Below are positions 1,013 to 28,160 of a DNA stretch of 28,160 bases, piece by piece. The DNA comes from a virus: positions 1 to 28,160 of the IMG/VR virus record IMGVR_UViG_3300042475_004077. One strand, written 5' to 3'. The notes beneath the pieces are model-generated. The model searched no databases. It was given only the letters and a program-made list of their open reading frames with translations, and was not told where the DNA came from. How positions within the stretch are numbered: the stretch's first letter is position 1; every line of letters starts with the position of its first letter. Both the position numbers and the translations under genes were made by a program.

Positions 1013-1607
1013 TAATGACGCAGAATATGCACGTTCTCGCATCGTGTCAAGCTATATGCGAGGTAAAGGCCAGTTATATAAAATCTTAGATATCTCTTCT
1101 AAGAGTAACTTGTTAGATAAGGCAGTTATTACTGCTTTAAACCAAGACAAACTACATGTGCAAATCAAAATTACAGACCTTGAGTTTAACATTGGTAAGC
1201 TAGGTTATGTTAACGATGTTATCTCTGGTATTGCAATGTTTGTAAGCAGACTACCTTTGCGTAGAGATTATCGTCAAGGTATTCGATCTTCACAACTTAA
1301 CTTTACTAGGAATGGGGGTTCTTCTCCTGTTTCTGAGCTATGGCTAGAGCAAAATGCAAAAGCAGTTAACAAGTGTATCAACAATCAGTTTCCTAAGCTA
1401 GAAACAGTTATTGAGTTATCTGAAGAATGGAATAACGATATTGCTTTTAGCAAAAACTTTGCTCTTAGCAGTAAGTATAAACTCTTGTATAAAGGATTTA
1501 CAATCGGTAGTTTAAACAAAGACGATAAGTTTAAACTAGACAATAACTTCAACTTCGTAGAAGAAGAATTTGCCAAGGAAGTAGGATATGAGCACCTTTC
1601 TCGATAG
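1005..1607 (+). CDS. Hypothetical protein inside the amidoligase cluster
   Basis: This 200-aa protein matches no family I recognise. It is mixed alpha/beta in character, with no signal peptide, membrane segment or cysteine motif. A basic block around residues 82-96 (RLPLRRDYRQGIRSSQL) stands out. The N-terminal third looks helical and the C-terminal third is rich in Lys, Asn and Phe. It overlaps the ligase before it by 8 bases and the amidoligase after it by 20 bases, so it is made together with both. It may therefore be a carrier, substrate or scaffold for the peptide-ligase pathway; that is inference from position only. Confidence 0.8.
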   Translation: MFNNDAEYARSRIVSSYMRGKGQLYKILDISSKSNLLDKAVITALNQDKLHVQIKITDLEFNIGKLGYVNDVISGIAMFVSRLPLRRDYRQGIRSSQLNFTRNGGSSPVSELWLEQNAKAVNKCINNQFPKLETVIELSEEWNNDIAFSKNFALSSKYKLLYKGFTIGSLNKDDKFKLDNNFNFVEEEFAKEVGYEHLSR

Positions 1608-2412: not shown

Positions 2413-2413
2413 C

Positions 2414-3208
2414 ATGGCTACTGAAAACTTTGTCTATCCTTATCGTCAAGCTTCGAAAAGTGCAATTGCCTTAGCTCAAGGTATTGAGGGAAAGGTAATT
2501 CGGCTAGAGAACTCTAGATTTAGACCTTCTGCAAGGAAAACAGTAATCAACTGGGGTTCTACTGTGTTAACCCCACTACTTGAAGGAACTCGTATTTTAA
2601 ATAAGCCTGAGTTAGTAAATCGAGCTAGTAACAAGAAAAACTTCTTTGAACTAGCGAAAGAAGCTGGTGAACTTGGACCTAAAATTCCAGACTTTACTTT
2701 CTCTAAAGAGGTAGCTAGGCAGTGGTTGTCTGAGGAGAAACCAAAAAAGATTTTTGCTCGTACAGTACTAACCGGACATTCAGGTGAAGGTATTGTAAAA
2801 GTAAACACAGTAGAAGACCTAGAGCCTATTGCTGAAGGTACTATGTTTGTTGTGTATGTGCCTAAAAAACGAGAATTTCGTTTCCATGTAGATCGAGTAC
2901 AAGGTGTCTTTTGTGTTCAAGAAAAACTGAAGAAAAAAGAAATTCCTAATGAGCAAGTAGATTACCAAATTCGAAACCATTCAAACGGTTTTATCTTTGC
3001 TAAACAAGATCTCGAAGTACCTGAGAGTTGTGAAACAGAAGCTCTAAAGGCTCTGAAGATTACAGGCTTAGACTTTGGCGCAATTGACGTTATTTATAAC
3101 GAACGACAAGAGCAAGCTTATGCTCTTGAAGTAAATACTGCTCCAGGTCTAGAAGGATCTACTATTGGAGACTATGTAGAAATGTTCGAAAGGCTAAAAA
3201 ATGGTTAA
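2414..3208 (+). CDS. ATP-grasp ligase
   Basis: This 264-aa protein reads as an ATP-grasp carboxylate-amine ligase, an enzyme that activates a carboxylate as acyl phosphate and couples it to an amine. The central strand and glycine loop FARTVLTGHSGEGI (114-127) holds ATP. REFRFHV (153-159) follows, and the metal-binding end is LDFGAIDV (219-226, D225) followed by ALEVNTAPGLEGS (237-249, E239 and N241). The N-terminal 70 residues form a short pre-ATP-grasp region. A good Shine-Dalgarno (GGGAG) precedes ATG 2414, and its tail overlaps the next gene by 8 bases. Its place beside two amidoligases suggests a multi-step peptide or amide synthesis. It resembles RimK-like ligases in general layout, but its specificity is unknown. 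Confidence 0.88.
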   Translation: MATENFVYPYRQASKSAIALAQGIEGKVIRLENSRFRPSARKTVINWGSTVLTPLLEGTRILNKPELVNRASNKKNFFELAKEAGELGPKIPDFTFSKEVARQWLSEEKPKKIFARTVLTGHSGEGIVKVNTVEDLEPIAEGTMFVVYVPKKREFRFHVDRVQGVFCVQEKLKKKEIPNEQVDYQIRNHSNGFIFAKQDLEVPESCETEALKALKITGLDFGAIDVIYNERQEQAYALEVNTAPGLEGSTIGDYVEMFERLKNG

Positions 3209-4043
3209 TGTTAGTAAGGTAGCTAACTTTATCTATAACTTGAGTGTCCTCTATAACCCCGAAATTATTGGCTGGGAAGATTGGGAAGAAGTTAGGCATG
3301 ACTGGTATGGCCAGTATAAAGATAACAGAGTAGCCGTTGCTAACAAAGTTCTAAAAGCCTTCGAAAAAAAGTACAAGGGTACGGGTAGAAATACCATTAG
3401 CCCAGAGGCTTTTGGAGACTACAAAAAAGATCTTTATAAGTTTAGAGATCTACTACTGCAAGAAGTTGAAGAACACTACTATAAGATTATTGATAAGAAA
3501 AAATTCTTCAACTATATCCGAATGGAACGAGTTACTGCACAACTTAGTGATCTAGGGTTGGCTAACTGTCTAAGAGATCATGTTTACATTGAACCAATGA
3601 GACTCTCAAAAGAAGAAATTAAAGAGTTAATAAAAACTTTCTGTTACTGCTTTGAGTATCTTGCTGATCGTATTAACAAGAAAGAAATTAACAAAGAAGT
3701 GTTAAACCAACTAGGCTTACCTTTAGTGAAAGAAGAGCTACAGTTACTAGTAGAAACAACAAATGATCTAGGAGAGTTGTTCAACTGGAACAAAACAGTT
3801 CAAGGTTTTTGGTGGTGGGCAGAGATATATCTAAAACGTGAAAAAGACTCTTTTAAGCAAAATGTTTATTCTTACTTAGAGAGTCTTCATCCAGATGTGT
3901 CTTTTCCAAAAGTTGTAATAGAACTAAAACCACGTTTAGAAATTAGAACAGGTATTGGTAAACCAGTGCAGGGTACACAAGCTTACAACGCTGTTCCTGT
4001 AAACTGGGAGGTTATAGGTGACTTAGCACAAAATGAGTTCTAA
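3201..4043 (+). CDS. Hypothetical helical protein, last gene of the ligase cluster
   Basis: This 280-aa protein has no recognised domain. It is mainly helical, rich in Lys, Glu, Tyr and Trp, with a tryptophan-rich patch (GFWWWAEIYLK, about 202-212) and a proline/glycine-rich C-terminus from about residue 240. No transmembrane segment or signal peptide is seen. The start overlaps the ATP-grasp gene by 8 bases and the gene ends just before two strong terminators, so it closes the operon. It might be the acceptor protein or a partner of the ligases, but nothing in the sequence proves it. Confidence 0.8.
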   Translation: MVNVSKVANFIYNLSVLYNPEIIGWEDWEEVRHDWYGQYKDNRVAVANKVLKAFEKKYKGTGRNTISPEAFGDYKKDLYKFRDLLLQEVEEHYYKIIDKKKFFNYIRMERVTAQLSDLGLANCLRDHVYIEPMRLSKEEIKELIKTFCYCFEYLADRINKKEINKEVLNQLGLPLVKEELQLLVETTNDLGELFNWNKTVQGFWWWAEIYLKREKDSFKQNVYSYLESLHPDVSFPKVVIELKPRLEIRTGIGKPVQGTQAYNAVPVNWEVIGDLAQNEF

Positions 4044-10023: not shown

Positions 10024-10629
10024 TTATACTGCCTCTAATATTTTAATAGTTCCTGGGTTTACAAGTACACCATCTTCGTAAATTATACCTTGTAGTGTAT
10101 CTAAGCTTCTATAATACTGCAAGGTAGGTTTTGCTGTAGAGCCCGGATGATATACAAGATGTGATGTAGTAAGAGAAGTTCTTAAACTAGGGTAAATACC
10201 TACACTTACATTTGAATCTGTAGTATTTACGTTTGAAGTAACCATATAAATTTTACTATGATTTGAAAATTGAATAAAAGAGCCTTTAGGTAAAAAGCCA
10301 GTTTGGTTAAAGTCAATTAAAACAGTATTAGATCCTGCATTAGTACTAGCTGGAATACAACTGTTAGAAGTTACAGTAATTTTTTTATCTACAGAAAGTA
10401 ATTGTGGCATTACCATTGACTTAGCTGAAATAATACCTGTAACTACACCTACAAAATAGTCTTCTTCAATATCTCTAGTTTGAATTTGAAAACTTAGCTC
10501 CCAACGTTGGGCACCTTGCGATGCCCTTTGTTGTTTTAGGCTAATTGTATCTGCACTAAAAATAGGTTCATTAGATTCGATAGTAAGAGGAGCCACAATT
10601 GGGCTCCCCTCAAAATAATATACTGTCAT
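10024..10629 (-). CDS. Distal tail / minor tail protein
   Basis: This 201-aa beta-rich protein is the first gene after the tape measure, to which it is joined by a TAATG overlap. It starts with a YYFEGSP strand, then the QRASQGAQRWELSFQIQTR stretch (about 34-52) that looks like the beta sandwich of distal tail proteins. The C-terminal half is Thr/Ser/Asn-rich. In siphophages this gene position codes for the distal tail ring or an M-like minor tail protein that links tube and tip. I cannot name the exact family. Confidence 0.7.
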   Translation of the reverse strand: MTVYYFEGSPIVAPLTIESNEPIFSADTISLKQQRASQGAQRWELSFQIQTRDIEEDYFVGVVTGIISAKSMVMPQLLSVDKKITVTSNSCIPASTNAGSNTVLIDFNQTGFLPKGSFIQFSNHSKIYMVTSNVNTTDSNVSVGIYPSLRTSLTTSHLVYHPGSTAKPTLQYYRSLDTLQGIIYEDGVLVNPGTIKILEAV

Positions 10630-13600
10630 TATCGTGATCCTCTCTCGCGATTGGTCATATTGACCCCAGCAGTGATCTCCGGTATCATACGAGCAATCTC
10701 TTTACGAGCTTGCATGGAGACATCACCTGTAACATTAATATTGAACACTTGTTGTTGTTTGTCCTTATTATTATTTTCTTTTGACATTGTAAAAGCAGTA
10801 GAATTGGCAGGACCAACTTGACCACCTGAAGAAAAGGCTGGTATACGACCATCATTAGCATTTAGGGTTTCAAGGAAAGGTAACCAACGCTTAGTAGTAG
10901 CTGCATTAACTACGTACTCACCATTGGAAAGCATTGCCATTATAGAGTCTGAAGTACCTGTTCCAGGACCGGTGACCTTACCTCCTTCAGCAGCGAAGAT
11001 CATGTTAAAGAATCCACCACCGCCTCCAAAGAGACCACCCAAGCCACCTAATAAACTAGAAAAGATATTGCCAATTCCACCAAATAGTTTACTAAAGAAA
11101 CCTGAAATTTCTGAGAATATGCTTTGGAAGAAACCACCTCCTCCAGCTGCAGAAGGAGTTCCAGTAGGAGCAACTGTTCCACCTAGGCCACCCGCCATAG
11201 GCATATTGGTGACAAATACAGGAGTACCGCCTTGCATTAGTCCAGAGGCATTAGGAGCTAGTACTCCTCCACCCATAGCAGCGCCTGCAGAAGAAGCACC
11301 TGAAAATAACCCGCCAAAAATACCAGTTAAATCAAACTTATTAAACAATGAGTTAGTCATACTATCAATGAAATTATCAATCATCTTATTAGTAAAACTA
11401 TCTAGTAAACCATCTCTCATTTCTGCAAAGCTAAGTTCACCTTTTGCATAACCACTAAGGTTATCCTTAAAGGATTGAAGCATAACTGAAGCACCATCAA
11501 GACCAGCTTGAGCAAAGTAAGCTGGGGTCATAGTGGTCATTTCAATAGCTTGTTCACCTATTTCTTTTAGCTTTTTCTCAAGATCACTTAATTCTTGAGT
11601 TGCTCCTTTACTAGCAGTACCTAGGTTTTCAGTAGCAGTAGTACTTTTATTTGAAGAATCTTCTACCTCTTTGATAGCACCCTCTAGTTGTAAAAGTGCT
11701 AAAGCACCTGATTCAACCATACCCTCTCCACCAATTCCAGCAAACAATGTAGATTGGTAAGTGCTAGAGGGGTCTAAGCCAGTATCAAATTCATAACCCT
11801 TTGGAAGAGTTACGTCTATAGACTTTACATTTACTTCTAGTACTTTTTGCTTTCCTAGTTCGGTTGAACCATAAATAGGCCCATCCATAGTAACTGCTGC
11901 ATCACTATTTAAACCACCTGTTTTAAAAGATCTATAAGAACCTGAGTTAATTTTCTGTAACAAAGGTAAGAACTTTTTGGTAGAATTAGCATTAATGACA
12001 TACTCGCCGTTAGAAAGCATAGCAGGAATAGAATCACTAGTACCTGTTCCAGGTCCAGAAACAAAGCCACCTGTAGCCATAGGTACCCCAGAAGGACCTA
12101 TTGCTGGTGGTAACTGACGGTTTACTCCATTCAAAAGATCTAGAATATTTTTTGCCTGTATACCAGCAAGTGTCATTGCTAGAGAAGCTTCCTGAAGATA
12201 GTTTGCTGCTTCTTTTGTTTTCTGTGATGAGTCTAGATATGCTTGTGAGGTTGTACTAATACCTGAAACTAATAGCTGATTAGTTTGAGTTGATTTTAAA
12301 ATATAGTCTTCTTGGGCATACTGGAATTCATCAATAGCAGTTTCTAAAGCTGCTGATGTAGCTACTACAGAATCACTACTATTCTTAATAGTAAGTAGTT
12401 TATTAACACCCTCTTGAATTTGAGTGTCTAACTCTCTAATCATAGCATCGTCTTGAGCAGCAGTCCCTACATACTTAGTTCCTGCAGGAGTAGTTATAGT
12501 TCCACCTTGAGTCGCTTTTGTATCCCTAGATAGCATAAGATCATATCTTAGCTCTTCAAGTTTGTTAATACCTTCTCCAATAGCTTCGATCCTATTAGGA
12601 TCCCACTGAGATAAGGTTTCAAAAAGTTTATCAATGTTTACTAGTTTGCTATCTAATGAGTCAATTATTGGATCTAACTTATCTAGTAGAACCTCTTTAT
12701 CCTCAAGAGCAGTCATTGTAGCTTTGAAGTTAGTTGATTCTAAAATTCTAGCATTAGTTTCTTGTTCCCCTGCTAGTTCCGCAATGAATCTACCAGCAGG
12801 TCCAAAAACAAGAGCTGTAGCATCTTCTCTTAACTTTTTAAGTTCTGCTTCTACAACTACTTTTTGATCCATAAGATTTTGACGTTCAGGAGAACCGACT
12901 CTATAGATTTTTAAGGCTTCTTGTAAGTCTGCCAATTCCTGCATAGAGTCATTTATACGTTTTTGAACAGTAGTTCTTGTATCCTTATACTCAACTCTAT
13001 TACTTACTTGATCAGGAGCTGTATAGGACTCCTTATTAATCCCTAAAAATTCAAGAAGAGCATTTTTTGCATCAATAATTCTATTAACAATTGAATCGAT
13101 AGTATTATTTAAGCTATCCCACCCTTGTAGCATAAAATTACCTACATCAATCCAGGTTTGAGCTTCAAATAATTTACCAAAGTTTTCGGCAGCAGTCACA
13201 ACCCAAGAATTAATCTTAGCTTGCCATTCAGAATCTAGTCCACCATAAATTGCACCAGCAATAGCTCCTCCAGCTGCTCCCCATGGTCCAGCTAAGCTAC
13301 CAATAGCGGCACCTGTAATAGCGCTGTTTAGTACTTCTGCTCCTTTTCCACCTTCGCCTTCCATACCTTCTAATGCAGCACTGCCCATACCAACTGCTAA
13401 AGCAATAGCACCAGCCATTTTTGCATTTAAGCCTGCTTGTCTAGCAATTAGTCCGCTTTCAATACCTGCAATTAGATTTTCACTAAGAACATCTCCAAAA
13501 CCAGAAGATTCTAATGAAGTTCTTATTAAAGATCCATCAGATAAAATTCCAGCTAAGTTAGCTATTGCAGATAGACCAATAATTGCACCTAAAGGATTTT

Positions 13601-16600
13601 GCCTTGAGAAACTCAATACGCCGGAAATTAGACCCTTACCTAATGCTAAGGCTCCAACTAGTCCAACATTTATTAAGGCTTCATTTTCCCTATAGTAAGC
13701 TAAACCTCCAAATCTATCAAAGATAGAAGAGATAATAAGGTCTCCTACATCAGAGAATACAAAAGAACCTGCGAGCAACGCAAGAAAACTAGATCTAAAA
13801 CCAAAAAGTATTCTTTGTGCAAGGGGTGACAAGGCAGCATTACCTGATCTTCTAGCTAAGGAGTCTATAAAACCAAATAAGAATCTAGTACCTATTTGAG
13901 CACCAAACGTTGAAGCAGTAACTACTGCATAAGACTCTAATGAATTAGCATCTAGTTCTAGCATATCGGATATAATGGAACCTATATTAATACCTAGAAA
14001 AAGAGAACCAATTGTTCTCATAAGTGCATTGTTTAAGAAGCTTGTAGAGCCTAAACTACTTCTTGCTTTTTTAAAGGCAGCAAAGAGATCTGCTTGCCCA
14101 AAAGCCAAAGCTAATGCTTTAGTAATACCTTTTCTAATAGCAGGTACAAAAGCAGCTGCTAACCCTACAGCTAAGACAGCTCCTAGAGGTCTAGCGTATT
14201 TCTCAGCAAAATCTGCCATAGACTTATTTACTAAAGCCTCTTTTAAAATTGGACTAATACTGCCATAAGTAGCTGAGATTTCTCTTTCAAATCTATCTCT
14301 AAATGTATTTGCAATAGCACCAGCTAAACCTAGTCCGATAGCATTAAATAAGTTTGACACCGATCTAGTATATAGCTGAAGAGTAGTCTCATTTGGTGTA
14401 CCCTGATCAAAGATTCTTGAAGCAAGAACGTTATTAATATCAGGTCCGAATTGTCTAGCAGCTTCTCCGGTAATAGTCTCATAGATTAAACCGATTAAAC
14501 CTTGCGACCACAAAGCTACTACTTTCATAGTAAATGTATTGTTAATAACAGGTAAAATAGCTGTTATTAGAATACCTTTTAATCTTGAAAATACAAAAGA
14601 ACGAATAGTTGTGCTTAATGCAGCAGCTACTGCGGTTAATCCAATAAATACGCCCTTACTAAATTGTTCATCATAAGTCTTTAGAAGAATAGCTGAAATA
14701 GTTTCCATGATACTAGTTATCCCAGCACCAATCCCTCTTACAGCAGAGAATATAACATTAGATCCAAAGTTTACAGCGCTAGAAATTGCATTAAATACAA
14801 GACCTATGCCTTTTACAAAGTTATCTTTAATAGAATTTAAGATATCTTCATTATTTTCCCAAAGTCCAGTCATCTTTCCTACTAGATTATCGTAAGTATC
14901 AGAAATACCATCTTTGACATAGGTAAATAATTTTTGAATACCTTTTTGCATTTCGATTGCAAAGAACTTAATAGAGCCTAGTAAGGATCTAGTTACAGAG
15001 TAACCTAATTCTCTACTTGCAATATAGTAAGAAGTTACTCTTTTAATAAGATCTGTACTAAAGTCATAAATTACAGTAGCCTTACTAAATACATTACCGG
15101 AAATAAAACTATAAGCGTCTTTCCCTAAGGCTAGAAGCTCTGTTCTAAATAACGTAGTAATAGCAACTAAACTACTAAATGCTGCATAGATAGGGTTTAC
15201 ATTAAATAGTTTTACAGATAGGAAAGCAGAAGTAATAGAAGAAATCGTTAATAGGATTCTTCCATAATTGTTTTTAAATTCTATTAGTTTATCATAAAAC
15301 TCTTCAAAAGTATTTTCGTTGAACAACGAGGTAATTACTTGGCTAATATCTTGGAATACTTTCTTAATATTATCATAAAAAGAAGTAAAGAAACCAGAAA
15401 CTCTGTTCCATAAGTTCTTAGGCTCTTCTACAATACCATCAATAGTATCTGGCCAAATAGAGTTACCTACGAGATAAATATAAAGATCATAAAATAGAGA
15501 AATTAAATTATTTTTAAAAGTTTCAAAAGGTTCTTTAACAGCACTCCAAAGATCTATACCAGATATTCTATAGAATTCTTTAGTGAACACATCAACAAAA
15601 TTTCTTATAGAAGAAGTGACTCCGCTAGTTAGTTTTTCTATTTGCGGTTTAAATTTCTCATACAGATTAAAAGACTCATCAATTAAACCTGCAATTCTAT
15701 CTTTATTACTAGTAAATGTACTTGCAAAAGCATCTATAAAAGCTGAGCCTATTGTTAGTCCTGATTTTCTTAAATTATCATAAATCAAAGAAAAATCTTT
15801 AGCAATATTATTGATAACATCAAATATTCTTGAACCAATACCGATAGCTTCTGTAGCTAGTTGCTCCATCCAAGGGAGCGATTCCATGAATAAGCTTTTA
15901 AAAGTATTTACTAAACTATCTTTTTCAGTTGAAATTAAATTAAAAGAATTTATTACGCCATTGACATAGTCTTTAATTTGAAAACTATTTAGAACAAAAG
16001 CAGTCGTTAACTTGGTAATTTCTTGTCTAGCGATTGTAACTGTTTCTACAACAGCAGCACTTAAACTGATTAAATTAAATTCATCTATTGCTTGTAAGGG
16101 TGCAATTATTTTATAAAAAGAGTCTACAGGCATTACTGCTAACTCTTTCATGTCTTCTAGGAAAGGTAAGGCCTCTGGCATAGCGCTAGAGAAACCAGAA
16201 GGTAAACTTTCAAGAGTATTTTTTGCTGCCTCTAAAGTTTTAGAAGCTACCCCATCTAACTTAATTTTATCTTCTTGACCTGTTATTCTGTAAAAACCAT
16301 TTTGGATAGAAGTAAAGATACTAGAAAAACCTTCTAGGATTTTTGTTTTATTCACTGCAAGAACTGCTGTTAATCCAGTTACTAGCTTAATAATAGGGTT
16401 ATTAGTTACTAGCGTTGCAAGTAATGCACCGCCACTAAAAGCAACTAAAGACTTTAATGTTTTTTCCCAAGTTTCCGCAAAAACAACTGCTTTAACAGCA
16501 AAGTTTGTCATACTTTCCCCGTTAAAGTATTCCTCCATAAGAACGAATAAATCTGAGAAAAAGGCAGAAACATTAGTATAAAAAGATTTAAAAGGACCAC

Positions 16601-18104
16601 TAACTAGGTTCCAAAGCATAGAAGCCCACTCAACAATTCCATTGATAGTGTCTGGCCAAACAGAACCACCTACTAAGTAGATATATAGATCATAAAAAAT
16701 ATTTTTAATATTTTCAGCAAAAGCTACAATGTGGTTACTAACTCTAGACCACAACTTAGAGGCATAAGCTACAATACTATCAATAGTATTTGCAAAAGAA
16801 GAAATAAGCTCTGAGAAAACTTTACTATAATCAATAGCTTCAAAGTAATCTCGTATATTGTTTAGAATAGGAGTAATTGTTTTACTCAGTTCTAAAATAC
16901 CTTTTTGGAAACCTAACTTTAAGTCTTTAAAAGAAATTTGCCCAATAGCTGCTTTAAAAACTTGTTTAAATACACTAGCTAACTCTGAAGCTATGTTAGA
17001 AACAGGCGCTCTTACTTTTTGCCAAATTACGTTGAAGTCACTAACTAGAGAATAAACAACTTCTTTGATTTTATTTACAACAGGATAAAGGAATGCAATG
17101 TAGAAGTTATTTAAAGCTAGACCTAAAGAATTAATTAGAAAACTAACATTGTTTTTAATTCTTTCAATATCTTTACCAACACCTCTTGATAAAGCAGTAA
17201 GAACTATGCCTGTGTTTTTAAGAAAAGTACCTAACGATCTAGAAATTCCGCTAGCCTTATCTAGTTCTCCTACAAAAGCTCCTAGACCATTACCAAATAT
17301 TTTTAACCCTTTTCCAAAAGTTACAGTCATACCTGATAGCTGTGTTTCTACTTTTTCACTTTGAGATAGAATAGCGTATGCTACTTTTTCTGCGGATAAC
17401 TCTCCTTCTTCTGCCATCTTTTTAAGTTGATCAGAAGAAACACCAAGACCATCTGCAATAACCTTAGCAATCATTGGTGCACCTTCATTAATAGAGTTTA
17501 ATTCTTGTGCAGCAGCAGAGAAGTTATTTGAGAAAGCTTGAGAAAGCTGAATTAATGCAGCATCAGCAGCAGGACCACCAGTTACCCCAGCAGCAATATT
17601 TAAAGTTTCAGTTAGAGTTAAAAGATCCTTAGTATCAAACTTACTAGATAAACTTGTTAAAGACAATCTAGAAAAAACTTGAAGTGGCGTATCTACAGCA
17701 GATCCGCTAAGGTTAGCAATATCGTAGAGATCTTTTTTTACAGAACTAATTTCTTCAGAAGTTTTTAAAAATAGACCTAGTCTATTTTCCATACTAGTGA
17801 TTGCATCACCAGCTTTTAAAAATTGAGAAGCACCAAAAGTAGCAGTGCCTAAAGCCAAAGTACTTGCAACTAAAAGTTTTATAGAACCAGTAGCGCTTTT
17901 AACTTGCTTATCTAAGCTAGCAACCGAAGTCGTTAACTGATTAACATTAGCAACTCCAGTTGTAGTTTTTACAGAACCAACTTTAGTTAAAGACTTATTT
18001 GCATTATTAGCAGAGATACCTAAATTTTCAATTTTAGAATTTATTTTTGAAATAGAGACTAAGGCATCTTGATCCTCAGCTCTAAATTGTAATTTAACAG
18101 TCAT
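10629..18104 (-). CDS. Tape measure protein
   Basis: This 2491-aa protein is the longest gene here and sits after the tail assembly chaperones, the standard place of the tape measure. Residues about 1-300 form the usual TMP N-terminal region (coiled coil, then the TMP domain with GAPMIAKVIADGLGV). The centre is long, helical and hydrophobic in stretches, and includes a repeated block (residues 470-492 and 871-893). A glycine-zipper-like stretch (about 1595-1621) could enter the membrane. Two SDSI.AMLSNGEYV.NA motifs occur near 2017-2039 and 2378-2400, the latter after a Gly-rich segment. TAGGAG precedes ATG 18104. If the usual rule of about 1.5 angstrom per residue holds, the tail is near 370 nm. 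Confidence 0.95.
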   Translation of the reverse strand: MTVKLQFRAEDQDALVSISKINSKIENLGISANNANKSLTKVGSVKTTTGVANVNQLTTSVASLDKQVKSATGSIKLLVASTLALGTATFGASQFLKAGDAITSMENRLGLFLKTSEEISSVKKDLYDIANLSGSAVDTPLQVFSRLSLTSLSSKFDTKDLLTLTETLNIAAGVTGGPAADAALIQLSQAFSNNFSAAAQELNSINEGAPMIAKVIADGLGVSSDQLKKMAEEGELSAEKVAYAILSQSEKVETQLSGMTVTFGKGLKIFGNGLGAFVGELDKASGISRSLGTFLKNTGIVLTALSRGVGKDIERIKNNVSFLINSLGLALNNFYIAFLYPVVNKIKEVVYSLVSDFNVIWQKVRAPVSNIASELASVFKQVFKAAIGQISFKDLKLGFQKGILELSKTITPILNNIRDYFEAIDYSKVFSELISSFANTIDSIVAYASKLWSRVSNHIVAFAENIKNIFYDLYIYLVGGSVWPDTINGIVEWASMLWNLVSGPFKSFYTNVSAFFSDLFVLMEEYFNGESMTNFAVKAVVFAETWEKTLKSLVAFSGGALLATLVTNNPIIKLVTGLTAVLAVNKTKILEGFSSIFTSIQNGFYRITGQEDKIKLDGVASKTLEAAKNTLESLPSGFSSAMPEALPFLEDMKELAVMPVDSFYKIIAPLQAIDEFNLISLSAAVVETVTIARQEITKLTTAFVLNSFQIKDYVNGVINSFNLISTEKDSLVNTFKSLFMESLPWMEQLATEAIGIGSRIFDVINNIAKDFSLIYDNLRKSGLTIGSAFIDAFASTFTSNKDRIAGLIDESFNLYEKFKPQIEKLTSGVTSSIRNFVDVFTKEFYRISGIDLWSAVKEPFETFKNNLISLFYDLYIYLVGNSIWPDTIDGIVEEPKNLWNRVSGFFTSFYDNIKKVFQDISQVITSLFNENTFEEFYDKLIEFKNNYGRILLTISSITSAFLSVKLFNVNPIYAAFSSLVAITTLFRTELLALGKDAYSFISGNVFSKATVIYDFSTDLIKRVTSYYIASRELGYSVTRSLLGSIKFFAIEMQKGIQKLFTYVKDGISDTYDNLVGKMTGLWENNEDILNSIKDNFVKGIGLVFNAISSAVNFGSNVIFSAVRGIGAGITSIMETISAILLKTYDEQFSKGVFIGLTAVAAALSTTIRSFVFSRLKGILITAILPVINNTFTMKVVALWSQGLIGLIYETITGEAARQFGPDINNVLASRIFDQGTPNETTLQLYTRSVSNLFNAIGLGLAGAIANTFRDRFEREISATYGSISPILKEALVNKSMADFAEKYARPLGAVLAVGLAAAFVPAIRKGITKALALAFGQADLFAAFKKARSSLGSTSFLNNALMRTIGSLFLGINIGSIISDMLELDANSLESYAVVTASTFGAQIGTRFLFGFIDSLARRSGNAALSPLAQRILFGFRSSFLALLAGSFVFSDVGDLIISSIFDRFGGLAYYRENEALINVGLVGALALGKGLISGVLSFSRQNPLGAIIGLSAIANLAGILSDGSLIRTSLESSGFGDVLSENLIAGIESGLIARQAGLNAKMAGAIALAVGMGSAALEGMEGEGGKGAEVLNSAITGAAIGSLAGPWGAAGGAIAGAIYGGLDSEWQAKINSWVVTAAENFGKLFEAQTWIDVGNFMLQGWDSLNNTIDSIVNRIIDAKNALLEFLGINKESYTAPDQVSNRVEYKDTRTTVQKRINDSMQELADLQEALKIYRVGSPERQNLMDQKVVVEAELKKLREDATALVFGPAGRFIAELAGEQETNARILESTNFKATMTALEDKEVLLDKLDPIIDSLDSKLVNIDKLFETLSQWDPNRIEAIGEGINKLEELRYDLMLSRDTKATQGGTITTPAGTKYVGTAAQDDAMIRELDTQIQEGVNKLLTIKNSSDSVVATSAALETAIDEFQYAQEDYILKSTQTNQLLVSGISTTSQAYLDSSQKTKEAANYLQEASLAMTLAGIQAKNILDLLNGVNRQLPPAIGPSGVPMATGGFVSGPGTGTSDSIPAMLSNGEYVINANSTKKFLPLLQKINSGSYRSFKTGGLNSDAAVTMDGPIYGSTELGKQKVLEVNVKSIDVTLPKGYEFDTGLDPSSTYQSTLFAGIGGEGMVESGALALLQLEGAIKEVEDSSNKSTTATENLGTASKGATQELSDLEKKLKEIGEQAIEMTTMTPAYFAQAGLDGASVMLQSFKDNLSGYAKGELSFAEMRDGLLDSFTNKMIDNFIDSMTNSLFNKFDLTGIFGGLFSGASSAGAAMGGGVLAPNASGLMQGGTPVFVTNMPMAGGLGGTVAPTGTPSAAGGGGFFQSIFSEISGFFSKLFGGIGNIFSSLLGGLGGLFGGGGGFFNMIFAAEGGKVTGPGTGTSDSIMAMLSNGEYVVNAATTKRWLPFLETLNANDGRIPAFSSGGQVGPANSTAFTMSKENNNKDKQQQVFNINVTGDVSMQARKEIARMIPEITAGVNMTNRERGSR
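15426..15494 (-). repeat. Tape measure internal repeat, copy 2
   Basis: This stretch encodes residues 871-893, FYDLYIYLVG.S.WPDTI.GIVE, matching copy 1 exactly 401 codons earlier in the same frame. Nearby segments also align loosely (LWN.VSG.F.SFY after it), so the duplicated unit is longer than the 23 residues marked. Confidence 0.8.
16629..16697 (-). repeat. Tape measure internal repeat, copy 1
   Basis: This stretch encodes residues 470-492. Compared with copy 2, only three of the 23 residues differ (G/N, V/I, N/D). It marks an old internal duplication of about 400 residues that would have lengthened the tail. Confidence 0.8.
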
Positions 18105-19401: not shown

Positions 19402-19980
19402 TTAGCTGGTAGCAGTGATAGTAAACGGACCGAAGAAGTCGGACTGAATTGACAGAGCTACAGTAGCAGTTGAAGCGTCATCACGTGAAGGATTGACGAG
19501 TAGTGATTCAATCTTACCAACAAAGTAGATAAGAGCATTAGGAACTGGTGAAGCTAGAGTACCACCAATACCTGCAGTTAGAGCAGTTGTTAAAGCAGGA
19601 GCTTTAGCAGGAAGCAAAGCAAACTGGAACACTTTAGCAATACCGTCACCAACTGCATCACCTAGAGTACCTGTAGTAGCGAAAGAAGCGTTGTTCTTTG
19701 CCCAAGCAGAAGGAATGTAGTTGATAGTTAGTTCTAGGTCAGGAGCGTCTGACTGAGCACCAATAGACTGAGTCTGTGCTTGACCATAAACGGGAACCTT
19801 GACGATATTAGCAGGAGTACCAAAGCTAGGCATGTCACGAATGTTTTTAATTTCTTCGAAATCTGAAGTAAGTGCAAAGTTAGTTTTTAAGTTAGCTTCG
19901 ATAAGAGTACCGGGAACAGGATCACGAGAAACAGCGAGAGCTGAATACTGTGCAGCTGAAATTGAAGTTGGAAAAGCCAT
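19402..19980 (-). CDS. Tail tube protein, paralogue 2
   Basis: This 192-aa protein starts with MAFPTSISAAQYSAL and is closely related to the gene just before it (19993-20580). The central block from EIKNIRDMPSFG to ELTINY is identical in both, as is SRDDASTATVALSIQSDFFGPFT near the end. Compared with paralogue 1 it lacks two short segments (about residues 36-45 and 104-112 of paralogue 1) and ends in ITATS. Position before the chaperones and tape measure marks it as a major tail (tube) protein. CTCC-type SD sequence precedes the ATG. Which copy is more abundant cannot be told from the sequence; the hairpin after it may protect its mRNA. Confidence 0.8.
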   Translation of the reverse strand: MAFPTSISAAQYSALAVSRDPVPGTLIEANLKTNFALTSDFEEIKNIRDMPSFGTPANIVKVPVYGQAQTQSIGAQSDAPDLELTINYIPSAWAKNNASFATTGTLGDAVGDGIAKVFQFALLPAKAPALTTALTAGIGGTLASPVPNALIYFVGKIESLLVNPSRDDASTATVALSIQSDFFGPFTITATS

Positions 19981-19992
19981 AAGTATTACTCC

Positions 19993-20580
19993 TTAGACAG
20001 TAAATGGGCCGAAGAAATCGGATTGAATTGAAAGAGCTACAGTGGCAGTTGAAGCGTCATCACGTGAAGGATTAATTAGAATTGATTCTAGTTTACCAAC
20101 GAAATAGATAAGCGCGTTAGGGACAGTACCGATACCGCCAGAAAGAGCATTTAGACTTGTTGGTTTAGAGGGTAGTAAGGCGAATTGAAATACCTTAGCA
20201 ATACCATCGCCTACTGCGTCACCTAAAGTACCTGTACCTGCGGCTGATACTGAAGGGTTACCGAAAGCAGAGTTAGCCTTAGACCAATCAGTTGCTACAT
20301 AGTTAATAGTTAGTTCTAAATCGGGTGCATCAGATTGAGCACCAATTGATTGTGTTTGAGCTTGACCGTAAACAGGGACTTTAACGATGTTTGCTGGTGT
20401 ACCAAAGCTGGGCATGTCGCGAATGTTTTTAATTTCAACATAATCGCCACGAGATCCAGAAGTAATTGAACCAGAGAAGTTAGCTTTAAGGTTAGCTTCA
20501 GTTAAAGACGCTGGCACGGCAACTCGAGATACAGTCAGCGCAGAATACTGAGCTGCTGAAATTGAAGTTGGGAAAGCCAT
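19993..20580 (-). CDS. Tail tube protein, paralogue 1
   Basis: This 195-aa protein is the first of two tandem copies and shares its N-terminus, central block and C-terminus with the second. Differences cluster in three spots: residues 16-46 (extra Gly/Ser-rich SGSITSGSRG), about 93-112 (NPSVSAAGTG) and about 138-152. It follows the tail-terminator gene, starts 3 bases after its stop, and uses GGAG inside that gene as binding site. Beta-rich with many small residues, as expected of a siphophage tube protein. The two copies could form a mixed tube or serve at different tail positions. Confidence 0.8.
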   Translation of the reverse strand: MAFPTSISAAQYSALTVSRVAVPASLTEANLKANFSGSITSGSRGDYVEIKNIRDMPSFGTPANIVKVPVYGQAQTQSIGAQSDAPDLELTINYVATDWSKANSAFGNPSVSAAGTGTLGDAVGDGIAKVFQFALLPSKPTSLNALSGGIGTVPNALIYFVGKLESILINPSRDDASTATVALSIQSDFFGPFTV

Positions 20581-21991: not shown

Positions 21992-23083
21992 TTAAGCGTG
22001 TAGAATTGGGAGAATACCTAGGTTCAGAGGATCCATAGTACGGGTCCAAGAACCAGCAGCCCCTAGGGTTGAGTTAGTAGCGAATACGTTAGTAGCGCCA
22101 ACCCAGTCATAACCCATAGGATGAGCTACGAAGCCATAGCGGTACCAGATGTTGGTTGAGCCACCACCAGCGTAAGCGGCAGGAGCGCGATCAACTTCGG
22201 TAGCGACGGGCATTGGGATTTCACGGAAAGCAACTGAACCGGGCTTTACGAGGAAAGTGGTTTTGGTTGACTGGTCGTTAACGTTTGCTGAAGCAGCAAG
22301 GTTACCCTGAGCAGCACGTGTTAGGATTAGACGGAACTTACCACCAAAGATTGTTTGGAAGTCAAGGTTACCATCGCGAACGCGATCTTGGTCGATTAGG
22401 TTAGCTGCACGAAGGTCAGCAAGAACTTCAGGTGAAGTTACCATGTAGACGAAGTCTGGTTCGTAGTCCTTATAGAACATACCCATAGCGCGGAATAGAC
22501 GCTCACCACGAGCAGCACCCATTTCTGAAGCGTCAACTAGTTTACGAGCATCGCCAGCGCCAGTAGCAGCAGCACCGAAGGCACCGTTAGCATTGACGTC
22601 AACGAAAGCACCGACTGAACCTGAAGGAACGGTATCGAAAGAAGTGATACCAGCGCCAAGAGCAACTTCAGAAGCGGCAACGCCCTTCATGATGTTTAGG
22701 ACAGCGTTATGCTCGTCCTGAGCGCGTGACTGAGCGAAGTTACGAGCGAAGAAGGCTAGGCCATCCTGCTGTGAGATAATGCGCTGTAGGTTAACCTGTT
22801 CAGCACCGATAGTGCGAGCATTCTTGATGTAGTTCGCAATGTCGGTTGAAATGGTTGAGTAGGTACCATCAGCTGCTGAAGTTAGCGAAGCGTTATTGAT
22901 GGTAGCTGAAAGGGGTTTGTACCAGCGTAGCTGACCAGCAAAGCCTTCACCAGCGGGGTCTAGTTCGGTTGAAGCTGCGACCATGCCAGTTGAGTTAATA
23001 CGCTTTTCTTCGGTCCAGCGCTCTTCTGCATAAGCAGAAATAGCGACTGCTACGTTCTGGAAGTTTAGATGATTAATAGCCAT
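21992..23083 (-). CDS. Major capsid protein
   Basis: This 363-aa protein follows a scaffold gene and precedes connectors, the place of the major capsid protein. It is rich in Ala and Gly with a helical N-terminal region. A long central segment (about 75-145, with ARTIGAEQVNLQRIISQQDG and an FFARNFAQSRAQDE helix) looks like the spine helix region of an HK97 fold. KDYEPDFVYMVTSP and VRDGNLDFQTIFGGKFRLILT are typical of the peripheral/axial domains of phage capsids. Base composition is clearly more GC-rich than the tail genes, as often seen for the most expressed gene. A weak AAAGG precedes the ATG. No separate protease gene lies in the window. Confidence 0.85.
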   Translation of the reverse strand: MAINHLNFQNVAVAISAYAEERWTEEKRINSTGMVAASTELDPAGEGFAGQLRWYKPLSATINNASLTSAADGTYSTISTDIANYIKNARTIGAEQVNLQRIISQQDGLAFFARNFAQSRAQDEHNAVLNIMKGVAASEVALGAGITSFDTVPSGSVGAFVDVNANGAFGAAATGAGDARKLVDASEMGAARGERLFRAMGMFYKDYEPDFVYMVTSPEVLADLRAANLIDQDRVRDGNLDFQTIFGGKFRLILTRAAQGNLAASANVNDQSTKTTFLVKPGSVAFREIPMPVATEVDRAPAAYAGGGSTNIWYRYGFVAHPMGYDWVGATNVFATNSTLGAAGSWTRTMDPLNLGILPILHA

Positions 23084-23113: not shown

Positions 23114-23794
23114 TTAGTAAGTCACTGTTCCTAGTTTACCTGAGTCTGCTAACGCAAGCAATTCTTCTGTAGACATACCAGAGAGACTCTTTGGTCGGCT
23201 TACAGTTGCAGAACTTTTGTTAGAAGTTGTCCCAGCACCTGAGTTTTCTTTAGATTTAAAGAGAAAATCCTTTTGAGGATCTTTAGCGAAAGCCTTTAGA
23301 TAGTCATTAATACTAGCACCGGACTTATGGACCCATGAACCGTCTTCGTCTTGAACAAGCTCAGGGAGAATAGTTTTGAAAGCAGTTTCACGTGCGAAAT
23401 CGTTACGGAAGTCGAGAGAGCCTAAGTGTTTCTCTAGCTCACGATCTCGAGTCAAAGAAGTTAACCGTTCTTGCAAGATTTTATTGGTTTCTTCTAGTTC
23501 TGCATTCTTTAGCTTAGAAGCTTCATAATGCTTTCCTTCGTCTTCGAGTTGTTTACGTTGCTTTTCTTGAGCTTCAGCTTTAAGACGAGCATTTTCACGT
23601 GCAGTCTCTTCAGCTTTCTTATAGGCTTTGTCAACATTAGCCTTCATTTGTTTAAGCTCGTCAGCTACCATTTGTTTTAATAGAGCTTGATGCTCTTCCT
23701 TCAGAGAGGCTTTCTTTTGAGAAAGGTCTTCGGAATTGGTAGTGTTATCGTCGTCTTCATTATCATTGACATTATCGTCGTGTTGATCAGCCAT
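23114..23794 (-). CDS. Capsid scaffolding protein
   Basis: This 226-aa protein starts with a very acidic stretch (Asp/Glu/Asn-rich, about 1-25) and a long charged coiled coil (about 26-130) rich in Lys, Glu, Ala and Gln. A folded stretch (LGSLDFRNDFARETAFKTIL) and a Ser/Thr-rich linker follow, then a C-terminal helix (GMSTEELLALADSGKL). This acidic-plus-coiled-coil layout and the position just before the major capsid gene are those of a scaffold. AAAGGAAAT lies before the ATG, and a TATAAT lies 25 bases upstream of it. No protease domain is fused to it. Confidence 0.85.
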   Translation of the reverse strand: MADQHDDNVNDNEDDDNTTNSEDLSQKKASLKEEHQALLKQMVADELKQMKANVDKAYKKAEETARENARLKAEAQEKQRKQLEDEGKHYEASKLKNAELEETNKILQERLTSLTRDRELEKHLGSLDFRNDFARETAFKTILPELVQDEDGSWVHKSGASINDYLKAFAKDPQKDFLFKSKENSGAGTTSNKSSATVSRPKSLSGMSTEELLALADSGKLGTVTY

Positions 23795-23876: not shown

Positions 23877-23950
23877 TGGCGAGGGACTAGAGACTTGAAC
23901 TCTAACTTGGAGTTTTGGAGACTCCCGTGCTACCATTACACTAATCCGAC
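23877..23950 (-). tRNA. tRNA-Trp (CCA anticodon)
   Basis: The minus strand folds as a tRNA: D-arm GTG..CAC, anticodon arm GGAGT-CTCCAAA-ACTCC with anticodon CCA, 4-base variable loop, T-arm TAGAG-TTCAAGT-CTCTA, and an encoded G73 followed by CCA (discriminator G is typical of bacterial tRNA-Trp). The acceptor stem has two mismatches, at pairs 2-71 (T-T) and 3-70 (C-C). It reads UGG codons only. It sits in the middle of the virion gene block and not with early genes. Confidence is high for identity, less for activity. Confidence 0.85.
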
Positions 23951-24509: not shown

Positions 24510-24537
24510 CCCCCTCTTCTTTATAGCTAAGAGGTGG
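24510..24537 (-). terminator. Hairpin after the basic-protein gene (no T-run)
   Basis: A 9-bp stem with one mismatch (24510-24518 with 24529-24537) and a 10-base loop starts two bases after the stop of the 97-aa gene. No T-run follows on the minus strand, so it is more likely a processing or mRNA-protecting hairpin than a full terminator. Confidence 0.4.
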
Positions 24538-24539
24538 AC

Positions 24540-24833
24540 TTAGTTAAAAAGGTTAGAAATACCTTTCTTAATACTTTTACCCATACCACCAGCTTTCCTC
24601 TTTGCAGCTACACGTGCTTTTTCTAAATTACGTTTAGCAGCAGCAAGTTGTGATGCTGTCTTAGTTTTACCAGAAGAAATTTTACCTAGTGTTTTATTCT
24701 TTAACTTACCAAAAGTACCTACTTTACCTGCTACAGACCGTGATGCACCAGATTTAGAGGTTTGTTGATTTGAATTAGCTTTAACTTTTTTTGTTTGTGC
24801 AGTTGATACACCAAATTTAGGTTTAATTGCCAT
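24540..24833 (-). CDS. Very basic 97-aa protein
   Basis: This protein has about 20 Lys and 4 Arg against a single Glu, so its net charge is near +23. Residues 1-60 are Lys/Ser/Thr/Gly-rich and probably disordered; 62-83 form a Lys/Arg/Ala helix (AAAKRNLEKARVAAKRK), and the C-terminus (GMGKSIKKGISNLFN) is amphipathic. It resembles histone-H1-like or DNA-packaging peptides in composition only. AGGAGA precedes ATG 24833. Lying in the virion block after the RNA polymerase, it may bind packaged DNA, act as an ejected protein or bind the polymerase; none is proven. Confidence 0.72.
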   Translation of the reverse strand: MAIKPKFGVSTAQTKKVKANSNQQTSKSGASRSVAGKVGTFGKLKNKTLGKISSGKTKTASQLAAAKRNLEKARVAAKRKAGGMGKSIKKGISNLFN

Positions 24834-24844
24834 TTTAATGTCTC

Positions 24845-25078
24845 CTATTGACTTAATGCGTTGAGTTGTGCTAAACCTAAAAGAAAATAAGCAGTTTCAC
24901 GAGTCATGTTTCCAGATCGTACTATCATTTCGTCTTCTTTAGTTACAGCAATAATTAGTAATTCTTCTACAGACTCTTTCATTTCATTGAGTTCAGTAAT
25001 AATTTCTTCAATCTCTGAACGATCTGCTGTAGTATTAATTGGTTGCTTATTAAAAATGTTTACAATCTTATCAGTCAT
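24845..25078 (-). CDS. Small acidic protein, 77 aa
   Basis: This helical, acidic protein (SEIEEIITELNEMKESVEEL) has a short strand-turn (TKEDEMIVRSGNMTRE) and a C-terminal helix (AYFLLGLAQLNALSQ). It starts 9 bases after the RNA polymerase stop with AAGGAA before the ATG, so it is coupled to the polymerase gene. The layout is reminiscent of small phage proteins with a strand followed by a helix encoded near polymerases or DNA metabolism genes, but I cannot name a family. Confidence 0.7.
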   Translation of the reverse strand: MTDKIVNIFNKQPINTTADRSEIEEIITELNEMKESVEELLIIAVTKEDEMIVRSGNMTRETAYFLLGLAQLNALSQ

Positions 25079-25087
25079 TATAGTTCC

Positions 25088-28000
25088 TTATGGACCCCAT
25101 CCGTAATAGTCGTAACCATTACGTAGAGGTGCAGTAATTTCTTCTGGTTTAAACTTAGGATCAAAGTAACCAAGATCTTCAGCTTCTTTGAGATACTTAA
25201 AGTAAAGCTCATCTGTAAAGCCTTCTTCACGAAGAGCATCTAACGTTTTCTTGACTTTTGGGTATTGAGCAAAACGTTTATATATGTCTCTAACTTCTTT
25301 AAGTAAAGGATCGATTTCGTTAATGTTCAGAGCAGCGGCGTCATGGATAGTACTGGTAGGGGTACCTGTTTTACGTCCCCAGAGATGTAGCTGTCTTACA
25401 ACGCTAGCATCGTCTGCGTGAGTACCGTTAACACCTAAACCAAGTCTAACATCACCTACTTGACCTTTACCTAGTAGCTTACCATCTTCTGCATTCATCT
25501 GATAAATGTTTCGAATATAGCGTTTAGACTGTGGATCATAGAAACGAATTTCTTGCTGTACTTTTGGTCGGTAGTCTTGATAAAGTTTTTTACCGTCGAA
25601 AGTAACCCAAGGAATACGAACCTTTTTTGTAGAACGAGCATAATCTTGACCTACTCTTTTCCAAAAGTCGATGTAGTTATCAGTAACAGGAGCACGTTCT
25701 GAGAGTTTCTCAGACATGATAGCAGCAATTCTTTTAAAGTGATCAGGACCAACTTGTGGACCTCTACGATTACTGTATTTGTATACAAAGTCTGCTAAGC
25801 TAGGATGAATCTCCGCAGCTTCAGCAAGTAGTGCATCACTCACCGCTTTGTCAGGAGTATTAGCAATTTCAAGGACTTCTTTCTTTAACGCTAAGAGGTC
25901 AGCTTGAGTATCTGTAGCACCAAGAGCTTTTGCTTCTTTAATTTTTAAGTCTATTTGTTTAGTCAAAGCAAGATACTCTGCTCTAGTAGTAACTAGCACA
26001 TCTTGTTTACGTAATACCTTTGACAATTCAAGAGCCACACGTGCTGCTTGTCCTGCTTTACCAGCACCATACAAAGAAATCATAACTTGATACTTAGCTG
26101 CCTTGTTAATGTCTTCCCAAGTCAGATCGAGTCCTAACTCATCCATTAACTCACGGAAGCGAGGATCAGAAACAGTATCTTGAGCGACAAGGTCATAGAT
26201 TCGGTTCTTCTTGACTGACTGTAACACGTTACTAGTGATAGCAGCACCACGATCACCTGTAGCGAGTGCAATCATCTGCAAACCACTAGCACTAGCGTCA
26301 GCTTCACCTAGTAACTTAGACTTATATAGCTTTAGCTTACTAGGAGTGAAGTCACCACCTGTAGCTTGATAAATACGATAATATTCTAAACTGAAACGAG
26401 CGATTTTAGCAATTTCTGCTGCATCTGTAGATTGTACTAGAGGATGCTCAAGAAATTCTCTAATACGTCTATCTCTTTGTGTCTTAGCACTTAATAATGC
26501 TCCTAATTCAAGAATAGATTTTTCATTTCTTTTGAAGATAGCTAAACGACCTGCCTCAGTAAGGGCTTCAGTACCTGGACCAATAACAGAAGCCATTTGG
26601 ATTCTTAACTGGTGTAACCCTTGTGGAGTCATAGGTACTGCATGAGCAGTGTTTAAGAAAGGACGCACTACTTCACCACCTGTAGGTGTTAGATACCCGT
26701 TATAGTAGACGCGACCGCGACCATCAATACGGGCATGTACGGTAAAAGGTTTTCCATTTGAACGGTAGTATCTGATAGCCTCCATAAGACCATAGCCTTG
26801 GTCTCCTCGTCTGATAATTTCTTCACGAAAGCCGTTAATTGAGTCATAGTAAGCTGCTTTACCTCTCTGGTCTTTGAAACGAGCTAAGTCATCCATGAAG
26901 CTTGAAAAGTCATCATCTACTTCATAACGGAAAGACATAGTATGATTTAACATGTCGGCAAAATCACCGTCAATTTGTTTTTCGTCAAACTTAGAAAAAG
27001 CTGAACGAGTAACAACAGGAACACCTGTGTCACGTCCTCTAGCATCTACGTAAGTCTTTTTTCCAGGAGCAACAAAATATTTGTTCTCAGGGCGATCAAC
27101 ACCTAAACGATTAGATAGCTCGATACGTCTGTTATAGTCTTGTAATTTTAGCATAGTAGGGTCAGTAACTTGTACTTCACGGGAAACAGTATCTTTCCAA
27201 TTACCTGAAGCACGACCTGTGTCAAGATCAGTAGTAGCTCTACGAGTAACACCACGAGAGTTTACTCTGATTATTCCTTGTTGTCTGAACAACTCAAGAA
27301 TTTTAGAACCTTGCTCATGGTAGTCCTCTAGAGAGGAACCAAAAATAGGATACACGGGATTCCAAGTTTGTTTTAACTCTTTACCTAGAAGAATAGCTAA
27401 AGAATCGTAGTCAGTAGTAGTGCCTTCAGCAACTACAGCCATCAACCTAGACATAGAACGAGTTACTTCACCTTCAATAGGTTCTGTTACCTTTTGAATA
27501 AATAACTTTTCTAATGTAAGACTTCTTTTTAGTTTGTAAAAGAATTCAAGATCCATAATAGAACGGTATTCTTCACGAATTGTTCTTGTAATAAAGTCGG
27601 CAAAACCTTCTTCTTTGATCTCAAGAAACATAGTCAACCAGTCTGGAGTCACTTTTTTCTTTAAGTATTTCTTTACGATTTTCGACCACTTCTCAGGAGT
27701 CTTACCATAACGAGTATAAAAACCAATAGGATCGTCAGCATAAAAAACAGAACGAATAGATCGTTTAATAAAGCTATCTTTCAGAGTTTCATACAATCCC
27801 TCTGGTTTTTGATTAGGACCAAAGAAATAAGAAGTCCAAGGAGCTTTACCTTTGTAGTAAACTGAGCGAGCTAGTTTGATGCCCTCTGTTGAAGCCCAGT
27901 CTTGCACATAGCGTTCGTATTCTAGTTTCTCTGCGTGTAGCTTAGAAATAGGAATAGTCTGGCCTTGAATCATAACAGCAGGTTCGTTAGGATCACCCTT

Positions 28001-28160
28001 AAAGCCAAGAAACAACTCTGAACGTGCTCGTGAGCGACGATCTAGTAGTCTTGAAACGTTAACAGTTGAGAAGTTCATTTCTGAACGTAGAGTAGCAACA
28101 AAGTTTTCCCAAGGAACTGGATTCTTTTGGTAACGGTCAAATAACACACGCAGATTTTCA
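25088..28160 (-). CDS. Single-subunit (T7-type) DNA-directed RNA polymerase, 5' end cut by window
   Basis: The frame stays open to the right edge, so the start is outside; at least 1023 residues are present. Numbered from the first in-window GTG (28147), the palm motifs of single-subunit RNA polymerases are all there: RIDGRGRVYYNGYL (473-486, DxxGR), motif A with DASASGLQ (D617), motif B with KYQVMISLYG (K685, Y693, G694) and motif C with STIHD (H935, D936). The catalytic aspartates D617 and D936 are kept, so it should be active. The N-terminal about 450 residues would hold the promoter-binding domain and are not recognisable by eye. It heads the structural operon instead of an early region, unlike T7, which raises the possibility of a packaged virion polymerase. 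Confidence 0.92.
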   Translation of the reverse strand, partial: ENLRVLFDRYQKNPVPWENFVATLRSEMNFSTVNVSRLLDRRSRARSELFLGFKGDPNEPAVMIQGQTIPISKLHAEKLEYERYVQDWASTEGIKLARSVYYKGKAPWTSYFFGPNQKPEGLYETLKDSFIKRSIRSVFYADDPIGFYTRYGKTPEKWSKIVKKYLKKKVTPDWLTMFLEIKEEGFADFITRTIREEYRSIMDLEFFYKLKRSLTLEKLFIQKVTEPIEGEVTRSMSRLMAVVAEGTTTDYDSLAILLGKELKQTWNPVYPIFGSSLEDYHEQGSKILELFRQQGIIRVNSRGVTRRATTDLDTGRASGNWKDTVSREVQVTDPTMLKLQDYNRRIELSNRLGVDRPENKYFVAPGKKTYVDARGRDTGVPVVTRSAFSKFDEKQIDGDFADMLNHTMSFRYEVDDDFSSFMDDLARFKDQRGKAAYYDSINGFREEIIRRGDQGYGLMEAIRYYRSNGKPFTVHARIDGRGRVYYNGYLTPTGGEVVRPFLNTAHAVPMTPQGLHQLRIQMASVIGPGTEALTEAGRLAIFKRNEKSILELGALLSAKTQRDRRIREFLEHPLVQSTDAAEIAKIARFSLEYYRIYQATGGDFTPSKLKLYKSKLLGEADASASGLQMIALATGDRGAAITSNVLQSVKKNRIYDLVAQDTVSDPRFRELMDELGLDLTWEDINKAAKYQVMISLYGAGKAGQAARVALELSKVLRKQDVLVTTRAEYLALTKQIDLKIKEAKALGATDTQADLLALKKEVLEIANTPDKAVSDALLAEAAEIHPSLADFVYKYSNRRGPQVGPDHFKRIAAIMSEKLSERAPVTDNYIDFWKRVGQDYARSTKKVRIPWVTFDGKKLYQDYRPKVQQEIRFYDPQSKRYIRNIYQMNAEDGKLLGKGQVGDVRLGLGVNGTHADDASVVRQLHLWGRKTGTPTSTIHDAAALNINEIDPLLKEVRDIYKRFAQYPKVKKTLDALREEGFTDELYFKYLKEAEDLGYFDPKFKPEEITAPLRNGYDYYGWGP

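Follow-up and report, generated by a model that had tools for sequence, protein, structure and literature searches.

A MuF-type minor head domain fused to a T7-type RNA polymerase in a group of aquatic tailed phages

Introduction

N4 and P23-45 are the precedents for two-step phage transcription that relies on a packaged RNA polymerase (PMC10770324). Loading of proteins into phage heads has also been described for minor head proteins of the MuF type. In SPP1, the portal targets the MuF homologue gp7 to the interior of the procapsid (PMC6316719); a few copies are loaded via the portal and support the start of infection (PMC6316719; PMC5576092). MuF domains also occur fused to polymorphic toxins, VIP2/ART, PBECR and RelA/SpoT (PMC5576092, PMC5512222, PMC7302621), and delivery to the host has been proposed for enzymes fused to MuF (PMC5512222).

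This study examines a stretch of viral DNA of 28,160 bases (a virus record, here called the window), in which a long reading frame for an RNA polymerase runs off the contig edge. Its relatives form a group of aquatic tailed phages that carry a MuF minor head domain and a T7-type RNA polymerase as a single polypeptide, MuF::RNAP.

The polymerase gene continues into a minor head domain

The ORF at 25088-28160 (minus strand) encodes 1023 aa of a divergent T7-type single-subunit RNA polymerase, the C-terminal part of the fusion. Since the frame is still open at the edge of the record, the gene start lies outside the window. The ORF matches the Pfam profile PF00940 (E 1.4e-10, 41 bits against a curated cut-off of 22) and the RNA polymerase family phrog_414 (E 2.5e-21).

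The missing N-terminus is supplied by an overlapping locus, L021, which shares 401 bp with the window end at 99.75% identity. The same frame enters a Phage_Mu_F domain there (PF04233, E 1.1e-10), which makes a MuF::RNAP fusion very probable for the window gene. In IMG/VR relatives with 85-93% identity, the ORF is complete at about 1507 aa; its N-terminal part matches PF04233 (E 1.4e-10) and the head morphogenesis family phrog_241 (E 8e-47), and its C-terminal part matches PF00940. PF04233 scores lie between 42 and 58 bits, against a curated cut-off of 29.6, and in both L006 and the phage DSS3_VP1 one ORF passes the curated cut-offs for the two domains. The first 340-370 residues of the full protein are a MuF (MuF/SPP1 gp7-type) minor head domain, from which a length of about 1507 aa follows for the window protein. 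In complete relatives this domain is followed by a linker, seen as a low-confidence stretch at residues 343-357 in a model of residues 1-560, and then by the polymerase. Searching the PDB with the MuF fold gave no informative match.

The original prediction had been a single-subunit RNA polymerase that is long for its kind (more than 1020 residues, against 883 in T7), with the suggestion that the lost N-terminus be read for added domains. The assignment holds, on PF00940, phrog_414 and the structural model described below. The length also holds, the whole protein being longer still; reading the N-terminus yielded the MuF domain, which together with a larger N-terminal region of the polymerase explains the extra length.

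Structure and kinship of the polymerase

The T7-type fold of the fusion polymerase is shown by structure prediction. An AlphaFold2 model of the window protein, based on 40 sequences, has a pLDDT of 77.9 and a pTM of 0.72; Foldseek ranks T7 RNAP first in the PDB (E 3.8e-19), followed by mitochondrial RNAPs. Identity to T7 by structure is only 12-15%. In BFVD, the top match is A0A7S5FRK7 (1463 aa, 45% identity), which agrees with the DSS3_VP1 fusion in both figures; free phage RNAPs come next, with N4-type virion RNAPs lower down. Profile comparison by hhalign gives 79% for T7 (E 1.6e-5) and 0.2% for the N4 mini-vRNAP, and phrog_2166 is matched only at E 0.001, with no stretch passing alone.

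Membership of the N4-like vRNAPs (Schitoviridae) is rejected by this profile comparison. The N4-type architecture (about 3500 aa, with a C-terminal encapsidation region and a zincin domain) is not met either, the proteins here measuring 1451-1603 aa with MuF at the N-terminus. Nor is that of P23-45, a two-barrel RNAP on the tape measure protein (TMP): the polymerase is of T7 type and the TMP is a separate gene. In a phylogenetic tree, the MuF::RNAPs form one group with 100/100 support that excludes the free RNAPs encoded by these phages, and a recent duplication of the phage's own free enzyme is thus rejected as their source. Their deeper origin is unresolved because of long branches (N4) in the tree.

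Active site and selection

The active site is intact. This is seen in an alignment of 56 sequences; the motifs were also aligned with those of T7, N4 RNAPII and S-CBP4. All of the elements below lie on the minus strand of the window. The DxRGRxY element (DGRGRVY, window-protein residues 479-485; 26705..26725) is the counterpart of DWRGRVY in T7, and DxxGR is conserved except for Gly to Ser or Ala in five sequences. Motif A (EADASASGLQMI; 26270..26305) contains the catalytic D621, invariant in 56/56. Motif B (KAAKYQVMISLYGAG; 26060..26104) contains K689, present in all 56, and Y697 and G698, present in 55; the exception is EBPR siphovirus 1, in which an exon ends inside the motif. The fingers element (GLGVNGTHADDASVVRQLHLW; 25379..25441) corresponds to GIAPNFVHSQDGSHLRKTVVW in T7, and its N..H..D pattern is invariant. 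Motif C (IHDA; 25325..25354) carries the catalytic D940, with the HD pair invariant in 56/56.

Two departures from T7 stand out. The position of T7 R627 varies (mostly A, N, Q or S, with R in one row), and motif C reads HDA in every sequence as opposed to HDS. Neither concerns the catalytic aspartates, and N4 RNAPII (HDC) departs as well, so membership of the superfamily is retained. Nei-Gojobori dN/dS values are about 0.03-0.15 in the MuF, linker and polymerase segments alike; they are approximate, since several of the pairs approach saturation in dS.

Distribution and conservation of the fusion

Relatives are encoded by at least 387 viral contigs in an alignment-based scan, of which 80 were kept for study. 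The 97 loci examined include several that are the same contigs in both scans, and 53 distinct complete proteins remain once identical ones are removed. The frame is not cut upstream by a contig end in 80 of the 97 loci; MuF lies in the same ORF in 79 of these. In the remaining one, L010, the frame is broken and MuF is matched at another place in the locus. Complete fusion ORFs (n=72) span 1451-1603 aa. In 13 of the 13 records tested, which are incomplete, no MuF gene was found besides the fused one.

A single scan, run over 84,980 species genomes of bacteria and archaea and resting on two peptide patterns, found no relatives. On this basis a prophage or bacterial origin was rejected. The absence is compatible with a lytic lifestyle, a possibility that carries no more weight than one such scan can give.

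Gene neighbourhood

Downstream of the fusion gene, the features of interest are all on the minus strand. An acidic ORF of 77 aa (pI 4.4; 24845..25078) follows directly and is conserved in relatives, with 77% identity in the relative G002. The next ORF (24540..24833) encodes a Lys-rich basic protein of 97 aa (pI 12) without a family match and is absent from G002, in which a 78-aa ORF is followed directly by the promoter-like element. In the window, this lineage-specific repeated element, CACCTCTTAGCTATAAAG, lies at 24519..24536, ahead of the genes for scaffold and major capsid protein (MCP). A tRNA-Trp (cca; 23877..23950) separates it from the head scaffolding protein (phrog_206; 23114..23794), and the major head protein (phrog_247; 21992..23083) shares 50% identity with the DSS3_VP1 coat protein. 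The tape measure ORF (10629..18104) has the TMP domain PF20155 as its only Pfam match, so the polymerase is not fused to it.

Upstream genes are visible only in relatives. The order in G002 is portal, head-fibre genes, fusion gene; in DSS3_VP1 it is portal, tRNA, MuF::RNAP, hypothetical protein, MCP. In both, the fusion gene occupies the interval between portal and scaffold/MCP that is typical of MuF-type genes.

It had been predicted that the polymerase gene stands at the head of the structural operon, on the same strand as the capsid genes and directly upstream of them, and is followed by a basic protein. Strand and position are borne out, scaffold and MCP both being on the minus strand. The basic protein is only partly confirmed: the adjacent ORF is acidic, and the basic one is second and not universal. 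The placement at the operon head fails, because relatives have portal and head-fibre genes upstream and scaffold/MCP has a promoter-like element of its own.

Two further features of the window were noted. The adjoining ORFs 19402-19980 and 19993-20580 (both minus strand) match one major tail protein family (phrog_158) and have an 85%-identical stretch of 126 bp in common, a tail-tube gene duplication of which G002 has a single copy. At 170-4043 (plus strand), weak Pfam hits point to a gene cassette of COOH-NH2 ligase-like and ATP-grasp-like type, joined in relatives by a glutamine amidotransferase; the whole is possibly a phage peptide/amide ligase module.

A second polymerase, a promoter-like element and possible dU-DNA

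Four records (G006, DSS3_VP1, G009 and G015) also encode a separate, free T7-type RNAP. In DSS3_VP1 this enzyme has 732 aa and lies in the early/replication region; G006 is a 73.8 kb relative of the window. Its absence from other records is uninformative, since these are fragments. Since these genomes have a free enzyme as well, an early, virion-borne role is left open for the fused one.

The element CACCTCTTAGCTATAAAG came from a k-mer search of G006 and G002 intergenic regions. In the window and most of its close relatives it precedes scaffold/MCP; it also precedes RNR, the gene in the SSB position and a small gene. The exact 18-mer occurs in 33 stretches of the viral collection, all from the window lineage; copies lie at L037 8718-8735 (minus), L038 14241-14258 (plus) and L041 2639-2656 (plus). 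Its CTATA and the purines after it resemble T7-type promoters. The element is likely to be a promoter for a phage RNAP, as inferred from sequence alone. Given the genes below it, the free RNAP might be its reader, although this inference is tentative. The same k-mer search of G006 and G002 intergenic regions gave no convincing early motif that could serve the fusion enzyme.

A variant form, CACCTCTTAACGYTAAAGCAGAAAG, precedes both the SSB-position gene and a probable tRNA in G006. Two copies of the element, at L038 14241 (G006 54241, plus) and L040 2603 (G002, plus), point antisense through 4-5 kb of small minus-strand genes and meet plus-strand structural genes only beyond these.

The G006 locus also encodes a dCMP/dCTP deaminase homologue (L038:12673-13089, minus), 42% identical to the dCTP deaminase of DSS3_VP1. 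Despite this homologue, a dTMP phosphatase was not found in the window lineage, and whether its DNA contains dU is undecided.

Proposed mechanism and alternatives

The original prediction of a possible virion polymerase is supported, and on stronger evidence than gene position: the polymerase forms one polypeptide with the only MuF minor head protein detected in the phage. It is very probable that MuF::RNAP is packaged in the virion; this is inferred from the fusion, and packaging remains unproven in the absence of proteomics. By analogy with gp7, the portal would recruit the N-terminal MuF domain inside the procapsid in few copies, and the linker (about residues 343-357 of the full protein) would tether the T7-type polymerase inside the head. 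On infection, the fusion protein would exit with the DNA and transcribe the first phage genes without the host polymerase. These probably would include the gene for the free T7-type polymerase, which would then take over middle and late promoters. The full mechanism, a MuF-loaded virion RNA polymerase of new architecture, is likely, with packaging, ejection, early transcription and promoter choice all inferred.

Several points count against it. A protein of about 170 kDa must unfold to pass the tail tube of a siphovirus. An SPP1 capsid holds no more than 1-2 copies of gp7, and SPP1 can do without it. The lack of a convincing early promoter for the fusion enzyme in the k-mer search counts here too. 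The non-conserved R627 position and the HDA of motif C also weigh against the mechanism, and polymerase activity is inferred and untested.

Three other explanations can be considered. The fusion might be cleaved at assembly, leaving MuF alone in the virion and freeing the polymerase to act as a late or middle RNAP in the producing cell. The low-confidence linker between the domains would suit this, as would the position of the gene among late structural genes, from which the polymerase would be made late. However, the portal-to-MCP genes examined include none that was recognised as a head maturation protease, a free T7-type RNAP is already present for such a role, and the fusion is kept invariantly across members with 45% identity, which would be needless if the domains acted separately. 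Cleavage is therefore considered unlikely. Less likely still is that the packaged polymerase serves mainly as a DNA-entry motor or a portal-proximal DNA clamp instead of an early-gene polymerase. MuF/gp7 proteins do bind the portal and support the start of infection (PMC6316719), and a coupling of vRNAP transcription to DNA entry has been proposed by the authors of the P23-45 study (PMC10770324); yet a motor would still use transcription, the catalytic residues are conserved, and there is no direct evidence for a motor.

The third explanation, a structural minor head protein with a captured and now inactive polymerase fold, draws on the strong divergence from T7 and the loss of the R627 equivalent. 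It is considered very unlikely: dN/dS is low, and none of the 56 sequences departs from the catalytic aspartates, the motif B lysine or the HD pair.

The virion polymerase reading can be taken further. A portal-tethered polymerase may transcribe the leading DNA and so help to pull the siphovirus genome into the cell, and in dU-DNA phages like DSS3_VP1 early expression may be freed from the host polymerase, which may read uracil-containing promoters poorly. Taken jointly, this bolder reading is no more than a possibility.

Comparison with known systems

The same gene is found in DSS3_VP1 and DSS3_PM1 (Naomviridae, Noahvirus; QGH74596.1/A0A7S5FRK7), with MuF and RNAP in 1463 aa at 43-45% identity, the fusion between portal and scaffold/MCP, and the same pair of polymerases. 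The window lineage differs in its extra head-fibre genes between portal and fusion gene. DSS3_VP1 is a cultured marine dU-DNA roseophage, reportedly described by Rihtman et al. 2021, whose fusion is annotated only as 'minor head protein-like'. As DSS3_VP1 and DSS3_PM1 are cultured on Ruegeria pomeroyi DSS-3, packaging, early transcription and the link to dU-DNA are directly testable.

A more distant homologue, at about 30% identity, is formed by gp47 and gp49 of EBPR siphovirus 1 (JF412302). It differs in that a group I intron (L023:16358-16584; RF00028, E 1.8e-8, 40.5 bits, below the gathering threshold of 50), with an HNH endonuclease gene beside it, splits the coding sequence inside motif B; the record annotates the parts as two unrelated genes.

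The Pelagibacter phages Kolga and Aegir have a homologous MuF 'head morphogenesis protein' (26-33% identity) in the same scaffold/MCP neighbourhood, share the MCP and MuF lineage, and encode a separate T7-type RNAP. Their MuF protein, in contrast, has 633 aa and no RNAP, and ends in a zincin-like HEFAHH motif (Kolga L125:45152-47053), which represents another MuF payload. The C-terminal payload of MuF thus looks swappable.

MuF-fused effectors have in common with MuF::RNAP the N-terminal MuF domain and a C-terminal enzymatic payload for which delivery from the head is assumed. Their payloads are toxins or modifying enzymes, and no RNA polymerase is mentioned in the bearing passages (PMC5576092, PMC5512222, PMC7302621). 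The literature searched contained nothing that joins a minor head protein to a virion or single-subunit RNA polymerase, and the bearing passages of papers on MuF and RNA polymerases do not describe the fusion; a mention in Rihtman et al. is not excluded. Transcription machinery would accordingly join toxins among the MuF payloads, and such a small natural delivery domain could serve for loading proteins into capsids.

Among virion polymerases, N4 gp50 is likewise a polymerase of the single-subunit superfamily encoded among virion genes, with a second phage polymerase in the genome. It differs in its size (3500 aa) and its other carrier domains, and the fusion has no profile match to the N4 mini-vRNAP. 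P23-45 is closer in design: a siphovirus whose virion RNAP is fused to a structural protein, with a second, non-virion RNAP in the genome. There, however, a two-barrel RNAP of cellular type is joined to the tape measure protein, as opposed to a T7-type one joined to MuF (PMC10770324). The earlier view that a siphovirus with a packaged enzyme would be noteworthy in itself is revised by this precedent, even though its enzyme is unrelated. A virion polymerase made by fusion to a structural protein is hence of a known kind, and the combination of a MuF carrier with a T7-type polymerase is new. If packaged as proposed, it would be a fourth virion-polymerase architecture beside the N4-type, the crAss-like and the P23-45 tail-tape fusion: a T7-type enzyme on a small minor head protein, hidden as a 'minor head protein' in at least several hundred environmental viral contigs.
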